Shown piece by piece: positions 38,995-47,365 of a DNA stretch of 64,000 nt. The number at the start of each line of letters is the position of its first letter. The first letter of the stretch is position 1. The DNA comes from Leptospiraceae bacterium (lineage in GTDB: Bacteria; Spirochaetota; Leptospiria; Leptospirales; Leptonemataceae): the NCBI GenBank assembly GCA_026418015.1, contig JAOACE010000022.1:1-64000 (forward strand). The letters are read 5' to 3'. The translations under genes and the position numbers were made by a program. Under the pieces are notes generated by a model. The model searched no databases, was not told the origin of the DNA, and saw nothing but the letters and a program-made list of their open reading frames with translations.

Positions 38995-39528
38995 ATGAAG
39001 AAGCTAACAACTAAGGTTCAAAATCTTACTCTTCCACTATGGGAAAAAGTATTTAAATCCCAAGAAGATCCCGTTAAAGAACAACTAAATTTAATGAGTA
39101 AAATCAGTCTTTTTAATAATATTCCTTATCGTAGTTTAAAATTGATACGAGCACGTTGTCATATTCGATATTATAAAAAAGATGAACATATCTTTCGCGA
39201 AGGAGAGCCAGGGATTGGGATGTACATTATCATAGAAGGAAAAGTAGAAATTTTTAAAGAAAAAGAAAACATAAAAACCATTCTTTCTACGTTAGAAAAA
39301 GGAGATTTTTTTGGAGAAATTGCATTACTTCTCCCAGATAAACCACGATCTGCAACTGCCAAAGCCTTAGAACCAACAACTTTATTAGGCTTTTTTAATC
39401 CCGATTTACAAATCTTAATGAAGCGCAATCCCCACATTAGTACGATTTTCTTATACAATATTGCAAATATCATCAGCGAACGTTTAATTAAAACCAATGA
39501 ATTACTAGAAAAAGGTATAAAGCCATGA
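38995..39528 (+). CDS. Cyclic-nucleotide-binding domain protein
   Basis: The 177 residues are mostly one cNMP-binding domain (about 35-165). Its first strands are KDEHIFREGEPGIGMYIIIEGKVEIF, and its phosphate-binding cassette is GDFFGEIALLLPDKPRSATAKA, with the Gly-Glu and Arg-Ser pair that hold the cyclic phosphate. There is no DNA-binding HTH as in Crp. The N-terminal 35 residues and the C-terminal helix flank the domain. The protein may act as a soluble cAMP/cGMP-responsive partner. It overlaps the AI-2E-type permease gene by four bases, so both are probably made together and may work together. Confidence 0.85.
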   Translation: MKKLTTKVQNLTLPLWEKVFKSQEDPVKEQLNLMSKISLFNNIPYRSLKLIRARCHIRYYKKDEHIFREGEPGIGMYIIIEGKVEIFKEKENIKTILSTLEKGDFFGEIALLLPDKPRSATAKALEPTTLLGFFNPDLQILMKRNPHISTIFLYNIANIISERLIKTNELLEKGIKP

Positions 39529-40565
39529 AGCGAATCAACATTGCCGTACATATTGCAAGGTTGGCTTTTTTTTCTTTAATTTTTTTATTAATTTTTTTTA
39601 TTTTTTATGGAATTAAAGAGCTTATTATTCCCATCACAATTGCATTTCTATTATCTTTAATGTTAAACCCATTTGTATTTTTTTTCGAAAGCCTAGGAAT
39701 ACCAAGACTCATCAGTGTTATTTTAACTCTATTAGGCTTGGCATTGGTTATATACATCGGAATCTATTTAATATTACCATTAATTCTCGAACAATTTTAT
39801 AAAATCAACGAATTTATAAAATACGTAGTTAATAATTTGCCAGAACTTATAGAAAAATTAAAACAAAAGTATGATTATTTGCCTTTGGATAATCCAGACT
39901 TTATTCAAAACAATTTTAAGTGGATTTTCGACTTAATTGTTAATCCCATTAAAGCAATACCCGTTTTTGATGTTTTACCCAATTTAATAACGTTTGCGAT
40001 AATTACCCCAATTCTATTATTTATTTTTATGTTAGAGGGCGATGCAATTTATCAATATTTAATGTCTTTGGTTCCTAATCGTTTTTTCGAAATGACCTTA
40101 ATGATTACTTATAATATTCGAAACGGCATAACATCTTATTTAAAAGGGCTTTTGATTCAAATATTTATTTTAGCCATCATTTTAATTCCTGGACTTATGA
40201 TCATTGGATTACCTTATGGTATTATTCTTGGAGCGTTTGGAGCATTGATAAACATTGTTCCTTATGTTGGTCCTGTATTGGGATTTGTTCCAATAGTCAC
40301 TGTTGCTTTAATTTCTGATATTTCTTTAGTACCTTTATCTGTATTAATTTTTGGTATAGCCCAACTTGTAGATAATGTATTTACCCAGCCTGTTATATTA
40401 GCACGCTCTGTAAATGTCCATCCAGTAATAGCAATTTTGGCATTGATTACATTTCAAAAATGGTTGGGTATAATCGGAATGGTGTTAGCAATACCATTAG
40501 CTGGTATTATCATTATGACCATTCAAACCATGTATAAATCTCTAAAAGCTTTTGATATCATTTAA
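39525..40565 (+). CDS. AI-2E family transporter (PerM/UPF0118)
   Basis: The 346-residue protein has about eight membrane helices and the AI-2E pattern: ELIIPITIAFLLSLMLNPFV near the N-terminus, a soluble helical loop (about 95-145), and the conserved C-terminal block GLPYGIILGAFGALINIVPYVGPVLG with VDNVFTQPVIL and HPVIAILALI. Members include TqsA (autoinducer-2 exporter) and Na+/H+ antiporters, so substrate is open. Its ATG overlaps the stop of the cNMP-binding gene. Its last four bases overlap the convergent phosphatase gene. Confidence 0.87.
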   Translation: MKRINIAVHIARLAFFSLIFLLIFFIFYGIKELIIPITIAFLLSLMLNPFVFFFESLGIPRLISVILTLLGLALVIYIGIYLILPLILEQFYKINEFIKYVVNNLPELIEKLKQKYDYLPLDNPDFIQNNFKWIFDLIVNPIKAIPVFDVLPNLITFAIITPILLFIFMLEGDAIYQYLMSLVPNRFFEMTLMITYNIRNGITSYLKGLLIQIFILAIILIPGLMIIGLPYGIILGAFGALINIVPYVGPVLGFVPIVTVALISDISLVPLSVLIFGIAQLVDNVFTQPVILARSVNVHPVIAILALITFQKWLGIIGMVLAIPLAGIIIMTIQTMYKSLKAFDII

Positions 40566-41266
40566 AGCAAGGTTTGTTCCTTATATTGTAAATGAGGACA
40601 AAAGTTGATAGAAACCGGTTCTAGATAGATTTGATGTTTCTTTTTTACGGTAAAAACAGAAATCGAAGTATTGTATATCTTCTTCATCCAGTTTAATGAT
40701 TGCTCGTCGGTTAAGCCAAATACGTAGCCTAATAGAATGGAAATTGGAGTTCCCGACGAAATTATTAGAATATTTTTCAAATGATGATGGGTTGCAAATT
40801 GTTTTAAGTCCTCCAAAATTTGTAATACCTTCGATTTATAATGACTATAACTTATGGGATTTGTAGTATCATAAATCCAATTTTTAAATATATTTTTTAA
40901 AATTAATATATAGATTTCTTTACTTTTGCTTAAGTCATTGGAATTCTGTAATTGCTTAAACAAATGTTGCAATAATTTATCTTTTTCTATATAATATTTT
41001 AATAAATTTTTAAAAGTATTCTCAGAAATCTCGTCAAGACAATCTAATACAAGCTCATTTTGTTCTATACCCATTTCTTTTTGGATGAGCTGCATTGTCT
41101 CTTTGTGGCGATTCAAAGTACCTCTAATCCATAAATCAAATTTTAGGTCATTTTCTAAAAAATATTTTCCTAATTTTTGGGATTGATATTTTCCATACTC
41201 TGATAATACATCATAATTGGACTTTATATCGCCTGCCTGTGCATGTCGAACTAAATAAAGATTCAT
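40562..41266 (-). CDS. Histidine phosphatase-like protein, second His missing
   Basis: The N-terminal YLVRHAQAG motif has the phospho-accepting histidine of the phosphoglycerate mutase/SixA superfamily, and WIRGTLNRHKETMQ supplies the conserved arginine. The second catalytic histidine, normally in a VSHGG context, is replaced: ILIISSGTPISILL. Some relatives have this form naturally, so catalysis could be altered but need not be lost. At 234 residues it has an inserted helical stretch (about 95-145). Its stop overlaps the permease gene on the other strand. It follows the DUF6285-like gene by two bases, so it may share that operon. Confidence 0.78.
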   Translation of the reverse strand: MNLYLVRHAQAGDIKSNYDVLSEYGKYQSQKLGKYFLENDLKFDLWIRGTLNRHKETMQLIQKEMGIEQNELVLDCLDEISENTFKNLLKYYIEKDKLLQHLFKQLQNSNDLSKSKEIYILILKNIFKNWIYDTTNPISYSHYKSKVLQILEDLKQFATHHHLKNILIISSGTPISILLGYVFGLTDEQSLNWMKKIYNTSISVFTVKKKHQIYLEPVSINFCPHLQYKEQTLL

Positions 41267-41268
41267 TT

Positions 41269-41655
41269 TTACAAAGAAAAACGTGGATTACTTATAGATA
41301 AATTTTCGATCAAAGTTTGTTTTACATGTTCCCAAATAGGATGATTCTTATGAATCTTTTGGTTTTTGATTAATTCGCACAATTTTTGGTTAAGTTCTTT
41401 TACTTTTTCTTTTTTTTCTTTAAGGGTTAGGGGTATTTCCAAAGAAAGATTCAACAATTCTGAGAGACGTTCCAGCTCTTTTATAAGGTTCAACTCTTCT
41501 TTTTCTAAGTCCCTTATAACAACATTTAGCATATTCCAACTAACCAATGTTTTATATGCTAATTCATCGTTATCTTTTACTAATGTTAATATATCCTTTC
41601 TTAAAAACTCTGCAATTGCTTCGATTAAATCTTGATTTTCTGGTTTATATTGCAT
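41269..41655 (-). CDS. DUF6285/LvaB-like protein
   Basis: This 128-residue helical protein follows the DUF6285 layout as I remember it: an N-terminal LIEAIAEFLRKDIL, a middle helix with NVVIRDLEKEE, a helical LNQKLCELIKN, and a C-terminal VKQTLIENLSISNPRFSL. In pseudomonads such a protein (LvaB) is required together with the kinase LvaA for phosphorylating 4-hydroxyvaleryl-CoA. Here it overlaps the kinase gene by 11 bases, which fits a kinase partner. The family call is from pattern memory and needs a profile search. Confidence 0.65.
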   Translation of the reverse strand: MQYKPENQDLIEAIAEFLRKDILTLVKDNDELAYKTLVSWNMLNVVIRDLEKEELNLIKELERLSELLNLSLEIPLTLKEKKEKVKELNQKLCELIKNQKIHKNHPIWEHVKQTLIENLSISNPRFSL

Positions 41656-42670
41656 TTTCTATCAACCTCATCATTTCGTATTCCATTTCTGCTGTTCTTC
41701 TACCAATCGCGGCAAGCTCAATACCTCGCGTTTTTCCTTGTAAATGTCTTTCTGCTTGTCCTATTGTGCCGACTGCCCAGCGGAGGTTTCCCATAACTTC
41801 CCAGAACAAAACAGATTTTTTATCAACCTTTTTTTGGGAATACTTTTCGTAGAATTCATAGAATTCTTCTCTGTCGGCAAATCCTCCCGCTTCTTTTTTT
41901 ATTTGACCAAATCTCCAATCTCTTAAACAAAACCAACTAATATCTTCGTAGGGATTTCCTACATGTGCAAATTCCCAATCCAATATCCCCTCTAAACCAT
42001 TTTCCGATACTAAAAAATTTCCCGTTCTAAAATCACCATGTACTAATGTTATATCTTCGTAAGTAGGGACGTTTTCTTCTAACCAATTGATCGCTAAGTA
42101 CATTGCCGGATGGGGTTCATCTAATTTTTCGATTTCTTGCTTCATTTCTTGTATTGCAAATTTTGATGGATGAAAGGGATGTTCTCTATGATAGATTTTT
42201 AAAAGGAAATCTAATTCTTGACTTTCTAAGGTAATAGAGTGTATAAGAGCTAAATTTTTTGCTAATTCGTCGAGTATTTTGGGTCTGATGGAATTTAACG
42301 AAGAATCTTTTGTAATATATCTAACATCTGTTCTTCCTGAAAGAGCTTCCATAACGTAAAATTTTTTCCCAGTAATATCCCCAGTCTCTTCAAGAAAATA
42401 TGGTTTAGGTGTTTTTACCCCATGTTGGTATGCAATCTGTGCTACGCGAAATTCATATTCTCGGGGTAAACTTGCAAACAATGCACTTCCCTTATCGGAA
42501 CGATAAACAAGCCTTTTTTTCGAACCATCATCAACAAATCTTAAAGTAATTAAACTATTTTCCTGACAAGCTCCACCGCTTAATGGTTTAAGTTCCTCGA
42601 TAACACATTGTTTATTGAATTGTATACTTAACCACTCTTCTAATCGTTGTTTAAATTCTTGATCTGTCAT
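41645..42670 (-). CDS. Phosphotransferase (APH fold), LvaA/ACAD10-like
   Basis: The 341 residues form an aminoglycoside-phosphotransferase-type kinase. KPLSGGACQENSLITLRF starts the N-lobe, TLVHGDFRTGNFLV holds the catalytic loop with Asp and Asn, and LEGILDWEFAHVGNPYEDISWF contains the metal-binding aspartate. Those features fit the acyl-CoA-dehydrogenase-associated subgroup that includes LvaA and the kinase part of ACAD10/11, and not drug-resistance APHs. It is encoded between an acyl-CoA dehydrogenase gene (39 bases upstream) and the DUF6285-like gene (11-base overlap). Its likely substrate is a hydroxyacyl-CoA, by inference. Confidence 0.82.
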   Translation of the reverse strand: MTDQEFKQRLEEWLSIQFNKQCVIEELKPLSGGACQENSLITLRFVDDGSKKRLVYRSDKGSALFASLPREYEFRVAQIAYQHGVKTPKPYFLEETGDITGKKFYVMEALSGRTDVRYITKDSSLNSIRPKILDELAKNLALIHSITLESQELDFLLKIYHREHPFHPSKFAIQEMKQEIEKLDEPHPAMYLAINWLEENVPTYEDITLVHGDFRTGNFLVSENGLEGILDWEFAHVGNPYEDISWFCLRDWRFGQIKKEAGGFADREEFYEFYEKYSQKKVDKKSVLFWEVMGNLRWAVGTIGQAERHLQGKTRGIELAAIGRRTAEMEYEMMRLIENAI

Positions 42671-42709
42671 ACACTAAAACTATTTTATTATGATTGATAA
42701 GTTCGTCAA

Positions 42710-43891
42710 CTATTCCCAATCGTTTTTATGATCAGTTAAAAATTCTCTTGCAATCACCATTTTATGGACTTCCGATGGTCCATCTGCATATCTTGCTGCC
42801 CTTGCATCGCGATAAAACCATTCTAACGGTAAATCCCTACTATAACCATGAGAACCACAAATCTGCATAGCTCTATCTATCACCCTACATAACATTTCTG
42901 ATGTATAGTATTTTGCCATTGATAATTCTTTTCGCGGATTTTTTCCTTCGTCTAGTTTTTTTGCAGCATTCATGGTTAATGTCCAAGCACATTCTATTTC
43001 TGTTAAAGAATCTGCAAACATCCACTGAATTCCTTCGTGCTCAGATAACTTTTGACCAAATACACTTCGATTTTTAGCATATTCCTTAGCTATTTCTAAT
43101 GCTCTTCGCGCAAGCCCAATCCATCGCATACAATGAGTAAGTCTTGCTGGTCCCAAACGAACCTGGCTTAAACGAAATCCTTGACCAATCTTTCCTAACA
43201 CATTTTCTTTAGGAATTTTTACATTTTCGAAAATTAACTCGCAGTGTCCTCCCATCCCATGCGAACCCATAATTTCGATTTCTCTTACCATTTTATAGCC
43301 TGGAGTATCTGTTGGGACAATAAACATGGTACTTTTTTTAAAGCTATTCTCGTATTTCGAAAATACAATTACAAAAGAGGCACCGTTTGCCCCTGTACAA
43401 AACCATTTATGACCATTGATAATAAAATAGTCTCCCTCTTGTTCTGCATTTGTTAACAAGGCACTAGGATCCGACCCTGCTCCTGGAGGTGGCTCAGTCA
43501 TCGCGAAACCAGAACGAATCTTCCCTTCTATTAAAGGATATAAATATTTTTCTTTTTGTTCTGGAGTTGCTGCTTCGATGAGTAAGTGCATATTTCCTTC
43601 GTCTGGTGCATCGCAATTAAACATAAATGGTGCAATTGGGCTTCTTCCCATCTCGCTAAATACCAAGCATGTATCCAATAAAGATAAACCTAAACCTCCA
43701 TATTCTTTGGGTAGATGGGGTGTCCATAATCCTTCCTCTTTAATATAAGAACGAATCTGTTGGACAGTTTCTAATGGCATTCTACCAGTTTTAAAATCGA
43801 ATTTTTTTTCTGCGGGAATAATAACTTCGTTAACGATATTTCGAATTTTTTTACGAATTTCATGTATATCATAATCCTTTTGGAGCATCAT
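42710..43891 (-). CDS. Acyl-CoA dehydrogenase family protein
   Basis: At 393 residues it is a standard ACAD. It has [40 protein letters not shown] for flavin contacts, [63 protein letters not shown], and [19 protein letters not shown] at the C-terminus. In the lva and ACAD10/11 settings the ACAD partner removes phosphate from a 4-phosphoacyl-CoA. The position normally holding the catalytic Glu of short/medium-chain ACADs reads DGPSEVHK, as in the ACAD10/11 subgroup. It opens the three-gene cassette. Confidence 0.9.
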
Positions 43892-43948: not shown

Positions 43949-44605
43949 TTATTTTACATCAACATAAATTCTAATCATCTTTTTTTCGGAATAGACATCT
44001 AGACTTTTTGATTTAAGGTGCTCTAAATTGATTTTTATCATCTGCCCTGGATGTAGTGTATGTGCAGGAATAAAAATTTGTACAATCGCTTGTGTTTTAT
44101 ATTTTCCTAATCCATTACAATAACTACAATTGAGATCGTTGCCATAACAATATTTACAGATCTTTTTTAAAACAACTGGAACCTTAAAAATTAAATCGCA
44201 CTCAAACTCTTGTAAATTTAGTTTTACTTCGTAGTCATACTGAATGTTTGCTAAAAACAATCGATCTTTCTTTTTAATTTTACTAATACGAACTTGCTTT
44301 TCTAAAAATCTTTTTAATGTTGCTGTATAATAAAACCTATTGGATTCTATCACTTTGGCATTTTGATATCGATTTTCTAAATTAATTTTTTTTATAAATT
44401 CTTTATAAGTTTTATCATAATTTTTTCGCTTTTGTTTGTCTAATAAAAATTGATAGGATATAAATATTTGATGAAATTTATAAGGATCTCCACCTTTATC
44501 AGGATGATAAAGTTTGGCTAATTTCCAGAAGGCTTTTTTTATTTCGTCTTCTGTTGCAGTTGGTTCTAACCCTAAAATTTTATAATGATCAACAAAAAAA
44601 TCCAT
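43949..44605 (-). CDS. Minimal DnaJ-domain protein with half zinc finger
   Basis: A J domain fills residues 5-70 (DHYKILGLEPTATEDEIKKAF and YHPDKGGD, His34-Pro35-Asp36), so it should stimulate an Hsp70. The middle is a strand-rich C-terminal-domain-I-like region. One CxxC-x6-CxxC cluster (Cys150, 153, 160, 163) forms half of the usual DnaJ zinc finger, which has four CxxCxGxG modules. The end (FIPAHTLHPGQMIKI) resembles the DnaJ substrate-binding domain. At 218 residues it is about 150 shorter than DnaJ. It reads as a reduced, specialised co-chaperone and not a truncation, since start, stop and spacing are clean. Confidence 0.8.
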   Translation of the reverse strand: MDFFVDHYKILGLEPTATEDEIKKAFWKLAKLYHPDKGGDPYKFHQIFISYQFLLDKQKRKNYDKTYKEFIKKINLENRYQNAKVIESNRFYYTATLKRFLEKQVRISKIKKKDRLFLANIQYDYEVKLNLQEFECDLIFKVPVVLKKICKYCYGNDLNCSYCNGLGKYKTQAIVQIFIPAHTLHPGQMIKINLEHLKSKSLDVYSEKKMIRIYVDVK

Positions 44606-46802: not shown

Positions 46803-47252
46803 TTATTTTACTTCTTTAGTAATTAGATAAGGTCTAAATTTATTCTTAAACTCTTCTGGTAAAGAAACAATTTTCCCCGAAGCAAAATGTATCCAATAAA
46901 AATTTCCCAACGCAATATACACTAAATCGTTATGCTGATCCCACATAGTACAACCAAATGTAAAGTTTCTACTTTGTAATTCCAGTAAACCGATTGTTAC
47001 ATCTAGAACAGCTGGATAACGAACTTGTTTTTTGAATTGCATTTCTAATTTAGCAACCACAGGTCCATATTCTGATTTTTGAGTAGGATCCCATATGCCC
47101 ATATCTTTTAAAAACTCTACTCTTGCGTTTTCGAAATATTTCACATAAACAACATGATTCAGATGCTGAAATGCATCCATCTCTCCCCACGATACATATT
47201 GCTTGTGTACATAGGGCAGTCGAATCAAAGGAACAGAATTTTTTAAAGACAT
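46803..47252 (-). CDS. Acyl-CoA thioesterase, 4HBT/YbgC-like
   Basis: The hotdog-fold motif GEMDAFQHLNHVVYVKYFENARVEFL contains the catalytic Asp/His pattern of 4-hydroxybenzoyl-CoA thioesterase relatives; LEMQFKKQVRYPAVLDVTIGL and NFTFGCTMWDQHNDLVYIALGNF follow. The track start is a TTG at 47327. The ATG at 47252, with a GGA six bases upstream, gives 149 residues, the normal length, and I use it. It lies nine bases after the amidase gene end on the same strand. Substrates are unknown; small acyl-CoAs are likely. Confidence 0.85.
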   Translation of the reverse strand: MSLKNSVPLIRLPYVHKQYVSWGEMDAFQHLNHVVYVKYFENARVEFLKDMGIWDPTQKSEYGPVVAKLEMQFKKQVRYPAVLDVTIGLLELQSRNFTFGCTMWDQHNDLVYIALGNFYWIHFASGKIVSLPEEFKNKFRPYLITKEVK

Positions 47253-47365
47253 AAATCCAAAATTTGTAATGCTAATTACAAGCCATTTATTTTTTTCTAA
47301 AAAAGAAAGATATTTTTTTAATGACAACGAAAGTTTTTTGATTTTTTAGACTATTTTTACAATTT

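Follow-up and report, generated by a model that had tools for sequence, protein, structure and literature searches.

A four-gene LvaABC-type cassette with a phosphatase-like member in a Leptospira-related spirochaete

Does a tightly packed set of genes on a Leptospiraceae contig encode the route by which proteobacteria and mammals break down 4-hydroxyacyl-CoA, and, if so, which genes belong to it? The stretch of DNA that we analysed (64,000 nucleotides, hereafter the window) carries the genes listed in Table 1. Our analyses indicate that four of these, all on the - strand, are very probably an LvaABC-type cassette for the breakdown of 4-hydroxyacyl-CoA in which a phosphatase-like gene is a functional member. 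Apart from its four-gene block with the phosphatase-like partner, the cassette shows nothing unusual for its pathway, which is recognized from proteobacteria and mammals and is now placed in Leptospira-related spirochaetes with four genes as its unit. This case makes two points easier to test: the reason why LvaA needs LvaB, a protein of no solved structure, and the role of the phosphatase-like partner.

Layout and borders of the cassette

Table 1. Cassette genes and bordering neighbours, with positions in the window and the evidence for each assignment.
Feature	Positions	Strand	Length (aa)	Evidence and status
AI-2E family transporter	39525..40565	+		Pfam; downstream convergent neighbour, border and non-member; kept in congener G002
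Histidine-phosphatase-fold protein (fourth gene)	40562..41266	-	234	Pfam, adjacency, block absence, alignments, model
LvaB-type DUF6285 protein	41269..41655	-	128	Pfam PF19802, alignment, AlphaFold2
LvaA-type kinase, APH fold	41645..42670	-	341	Pfam, 36% to operon LvaA, PDB, tree
LvaC/ACAD11-type acyl-CoA dehydrogenase	42710..43891	-	393	Pfam, PDB match, residue alignment, tree
DnaJ-domain protein	43949..44605	-		Pfam; upstream neighbour, border and non-member; kept in congener G002

The first-pass annotation described a three-gene cassette at 41269-43891 composed of dehydrogenase, kinase and DUF6285 reading frames, and its coordinates, the 39-base gap from dehydrogenase to kinase and the 11-base overlap of the kinase and DUF6285 frames are all exact. 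The description holds for these three genes but not for the border, as it omitted a fourth co-oriented gene (40562-41266), whose reading frame starts 2 bases past the DUF6285 stop codon on the same strand. The cassette is composed of four genes, the histidine-phosphatase-fold gene included.

Scans of the cassette for promoters and terminators returned matches at chance level only, and its borders are consequently based on gene spacing and on an empty site in a congener. In this congener (G002) about 58 bases separate the DnaJ gene from the AI-2E transporter gene, and every one of the cassette genes is missing; in congener G003 the complete set occupies the corresponding position. The cassette is present or absent as a unit, and this comparison within the genus is the strongest evidence that the fourth gene belongs to it. 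The base composition of the cassette shows no sharp contrast with its surroundings.

The DUF6285 and phosphatase genes are also absent from a further congener, G001 (L127, L128). Its locus is rearranged, as the flanking genes are split between two contigs and no DnaJ gene was found there. Further upstream in the window, a gene for a 4HBT_2 acyl-CoA thioesterase (46803-47327, same strand) precedes the amidase, hypothetical and DnaJ genes; it is retained both by congeners that have the cassette and by those that lack it.

Dehydrogenase, kinase and DUF6285 protein

The dehydrogenase belongs to Pfam family Acyl-CoA_dh_1 (E 1.5e-47) and its top PDB match is human ACAD11 (2wbi, E 4.4e-73), which ranked above every ordinary acyl-CoA dehydrogenase. 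In a maximum-likelihood tree it falls inside an LvaC/ACAD11 clade of 18 rows (support 95/99), with three ACAD paralogues from its own genome and the Thermus MCAD outside. The HCMR motif and the upstream Arg that mark ACAD10, ACAD11 and LvaC are both present, and HCMR is missing from nine other ACAD-type reading frames of the same genome. A twelve-residue stretch (245-256) aligns column for column with mouse ACAD11 R626/R631/H634/R637, so that R245, H253 and R256 correspond to R626, H634 and R637, and R250 is conserved as well. In the motif ADGPSEVH, Asp370 aligns with mouse ACAD11 D753 and takes the place of the usual Glu, the own-genome paralogues L084, L085 and L092 showing EG at this motif. 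The dehydrogenase and its relatives also share an invariant proline, P96, in an APD.GN motif, which we take to be the pocket-widening proline of the family on the assumption that the numbering corresponds. That an ACAD family proline widens the pocket has been reported (PMC11342911). In a model of mouse ACAD11, R626, H634 and R637 form salt bridges to the 4-phosphate; the phospho-intermediate accumulated when these residues were replaced non-conservatively, and D753 is the catalytic base (PMC12440821). The dehydrogenase is of the LvaC/ACAD11 type and, judged from its sequence, is predicted to act on 4-phosphoacyl-CoA.

The kinase is an APH protein (Pfam, E 1.7e-31) with intact catalytic motifs, namely the HGDFRTGN loop and ILDWE. 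A P. aeruginosa plasmid has a complete lva operon, in which LvaA, LvaB and LvaC are encoded together with a PrpR-type regulator, an SDR and an acyl-CoA synthetase; the window kinase is 36% identical to its LvaA over the full length (~340 aa). Its PDB matches were the ACAD11 kinase domain and 3dxp. These two form their own branch in the kinase tree (96/99), separate from the LvaA-type kinases, and an APH paralogue from the same genome (L108) lies far from the window kinase; the inner forks, including those around the window kinase, are weakly supported. The protein is an LvaA-type kinase and a putative 4-hydroxyacyl-CoA kinase.

The small protein matches DUF6285 (PF19802, E 2.8e-13; score 50.8 bits, Pfam gathering cut-off 28.1), as does the annotated LvaB of the P. 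aeruginosa plasmid operon (E 4.8e-24), in which the small gene is labelled lvaB, 4-hydroxypentanoyl-CoA kinase subunit. A direct BLAST comparison of these two proteins gave no match, and it is therefore the shared Pfam profile that ties them together. Conserved motifs in the alignment are MQ..P, LVSWNML and NPRF. The AlphaFold2 model has four helices (mean pLDDT 86.8), and the fold offers no functional hint beyond these since sequence and fold searches of the PDB produced nothing significant. A tblastn search of plasmids with LvaB was likewise without a match, and the plasmid loci considered below were found with the kinase as the query instead. NCBIfam has no equivalog for any cassette protein. 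According to the account of Rand et al. (2017) given in PMC6692424, LvaB of P. putida was pulled down with LvaA and was needed for growth on levulinate.

The resemblance to LvaA, LvaB and LvaC that the first-pass annotation had proposed is thus borne out for each protein: the dehydrogenase by its clade, HCMR motif, upstream Arg and catalytic Asp, which set it apart from ordinary fatty-acid ACADs; the small protein by a DUF6285 match above the cut-off; and the kinase by its full-length similarity to operon LvaA and its distance from L108. The comparison with mammalian ACAD10/11 made in the same annotation is correct in part, being close for the dehydrogenase, in clade and residues, and distant for the kinase, because the ACAD11 and 3dxp kinases branch apart from the LvaA type.

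Distribution and the phosphatase-like fourth gene

Among the 393 Spirochaetota genomes sampled, 29 encode DUF6285, all within three families of one class. An LvaA-type kinase gene lies directly upstream of the DUF6285 gene in 30/30 loci from this and related genomes, and the grouping of dehydrogenase, kinase and DUF6285 genes is for this reason not a chance one. A dehydrogenase with HCMR is nearby in about half of the wider regions examined, and several related genomes have LvaA-LvaB with no LvaC nearby. The nearest named relative, the Leptospiraceae metagenome assembly KatS3mg129, has the same cassette, with a kinase 80% identical to that of the window, and similar clusters occur in Chloroflexota, a Myxococcales MAG, Deinococcota and Pseudomonadota. 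The spirochaete cassette is therefore no peculiarity of this organism, being widespread among families related to Leptospira and present in other phyla as well.

The fourth protein belongs to His_Phos_1 (E 6.4e-12) and its model (pLDDT 91.0) has the fold of the histidine phosphatases. All aligned copies retain R7, H8, R53 and E79. At the position of the second catalytic His, part of VSH in CobC, the Thermus, Azospirillum and Stutzerimonas proteins keep the His, Azoarcus has a Ser and the spirochaete group has Ser171; this replacement leaves the fourth protein without the full residue set of a classical branch 1 histidine phosphatase, namely two catalytic His, two Arg and an acidic residue. From their sequences, at least two phosphatase subfamilies adjoin lvaB. 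They may be independent recruitments, and the tree supports for the two types (81/80 and 91/89) are too low for this to be claimed.

In 16 genomes, which represent 10 genera, a phosphatase-like gene comes immediately after lvaB. The distance is at most 0.8 kb in another two genomes and at most 4.3 kb, still inside the cluster, in one further; in two fragmented assemblies the gene is on another contig, and 8 of the 29 DUF6285-bearing relatives have no detectable homologue. Across 61 genomes, the co-occurrence of DUF6285 and phosphatase (counts of 21/2/8/30) gave a Fisher p of 1e-7, uncorrected for kinship. The outer neighbours of the cassette differ between genera, and the linkage of lvaB and phosphatase is consequently not simply an inherited long synteny. 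Fifteen annotated plasmid loci gave a mixed picture: in six (from Azoarcus, two Thermus, two Azospirillum and Stutzerimonas) the next gene after DUF6285 encodes a histidine phosphatase, and in the other nine, the full P. aeruginosa operon among them, none lies beside it. The Stutzerimonas phosphatase gene is part of an operon that also encodes a dehydrogenase, an SDR and a PrpR-type regulator. A phosphatase gene had already been noted in the lva cluster of P. citronellolis in 2019 (PMC6692424).

Proposed pathway, alternatives and related systems

We propose that 4-hydroxyacyl-CoA would be converted via 4-phosphoacyl-CoA to 2-enoyl-CoA, which would then pass to beta-oxidation. The LvaA kinase, with LvaB as its partner subunit, would carry out the ATP-dependent phosphorylation of the 4-hydroxyl. 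In LvaC, R245, H253 and R256 would bind the 4-phosphate, and Asp370 and FAD would expel it to yield 2-enoyl-CoA with no net oxidation. Thiolase, 3-hydroxyacyl-CoA dehydrogenase and methylmalonyl-CoA mutase families are all carried by the genome; the 2-enoyl-CoA could enter its beta-oxidation, and any propionyl-CoA could pass via the mutase. We infer the reaction, the substrate and its chain length, the association of LvaA with LvaB in this bacterium and what the phosphatase-like protein does. With such a route, this spirochaete might be able to use 4-hydroxy fatty acids or lactones.

An ordinary acyl-CoA dehydrogenase and an unrelated APH enzyme, for example an antibiotic phosphotransferase, could in principle have become neighbours by chance, as both superfamilies are large and generic profiles match both proteins. 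We regard this as extremely improbable given the clade placement and HCMR/Asp signature of the dehydrogenase, the invariable adjacency of kinase and DUF6285 genes, the presence or absence of the block as a whole, and the fact that no resistance family scored above its curated cut-off. It is also quite improbable that the pathway is a levulinate-specific (C5) one, as in Pseudomonas putida, rather than a general route for 4-hydroxy fatty acids. All of LvaA, LvaB and LvaC are present, and, of operons with an annotated lvaB, the closest is a complete levulinate one, but no LvaD-type SDR, LvaE-type CoA ligase or acyl-CoA synthetase, LvaF/G transporter or PrpR-type regulator was found in the neighbourhood of the cassette. 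Because there is no CoA ligase, SDR or regulator beside it, the cassette is not a levulinate operon and a link to levulinate is not supported. Moreover, the chemistry does not imply levulinate since ACAD10/11 act on longer 4-hydroxyacyl-CoAs (PMC12440821).

Alternatives also bear on the fourth gene. That it is a passenger with no role in the pathway would be in keeping with the DUF6285-bearing relatives and plasmid loci that do without it, the full P. aeruginosa operon included. We nevertheless consider this unlikely, based on its position directly after or close to lvaB in so many genera, its occurrence next to the lva genes of Thermus, Azospirillum, Azoarcus, Stutzerimonas and P. citronellolis (PMC6692424), and its loss together with lvaCAB in G002. 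A more central role, in which the protein would remove the phosphate from 4-phosphoacyl-CoA on the main route and the dehydrogenase would act only later, was proposed for P. citronellolis (PMC6692424) and agrees with the physical linkage. It is very unlikely here: ACAD10/11 release the phosphate with no such partner (PMC12440821, PMC11342911), simple hydrolysis would only give back 4-hydroxyacyl-CoA, and the spirochaete version is without the second catalytic His. Our preferred interpretation is that the fourth gene is most likely a functional cassette member whose product clears or restrains phosphorylated intermediates. A possible, if doubtful, extension is that the kinase step has repeatedly been paired with a phosphatase-fold partner and that the fourth gene encodes a dedicated, possibly non-catalytic, regulator of LvaA-LvaB. 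Partners of this kind would be the HAD domain of animal ACAD10, the CobC-like histidine phosphatases of Thermus, Azospirillum and Stutzerimonas, and the divergent His-to-Ser type of the spirochaetes and Azoarcus. The ACAD10 HAD domain keeps only the first of two invariant aspartates and restrains the kinase (PMC11342911), and it is from this analogy that we propose clearing or restraint as the role of the fourth protein.

The Pseudomonas levulinate operon has the same three protein families, with LvaA and then LvaB adjacent and a dehydrogenase that carries the HCMR and DGPSEVH motifs. It differs in that the order here is C-A-B followed by the phosphatase-fold gene, with no LvaD, LvaE, transporter or regulator alongside, and in that identities are only 36% (A) and 42% (C), LvaB being tied by profile only. 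The dehydrogenases of mammalian ACAD10 and ACAD11 fall in one clade with that of the cassette and do not differ from it in the residues of the phosphate pocket or of catalysis, and the kinases belong to the same APH superfamily. In the spirochaete, however, the kinase is a separate LvaA-type protein outside the ACAD11/3dxp branch. No LvaB has been described for the mammalian proteins, and in place of the histidine-phosphatase-fold neighbour of these bacteria ACAD10 has a HAD domain. Thermus thermophilus HB8 pTT27 and Azospirillum ramasamyi have the same four kinds of gene in the same order, ACAD-kinase-DUF6285-histidine phosphatase, although their phosphatases are CobC-like and retain the second catalytic His, and an SDR gene precedes the dehydrogenase. 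Pseudomonas citronellolis LA18 also has a histidine phosphatase family gene, between its lvaA and lvaC homologues, but lvaB was reported by the authors to be missing (PMC6692424). A short lvaB in that cluster may have been overlooked. On a Stutzerimonas stutzeri S116 plasmid (L129, 2902-6939), where the order resembles that of P. citronellolis, a DUF6285 gene lies between the kinase and phosphatase genes.

Two variants were observed among the relatives. In a second type of cassette, from G004, G018 and G015 (L033, L041 and L049), LvaA-LvaB is accompanied by an HCMR dehydrogenase, an SDR and a TetR-type regulator. The tree places the dehydrogenases of L033 and L049 together with human ACAD11 and M. 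abscessus 4hr3 (100/99), and not with the LvaC group of the window. In G027 and G029 (L045 and L046) a zinc alcohol dehydrogenase-like gene follows lvaB at the usual place of the phosphatase, and its product might interconvert 4-hydroxy and 4-oxo acyl groups.
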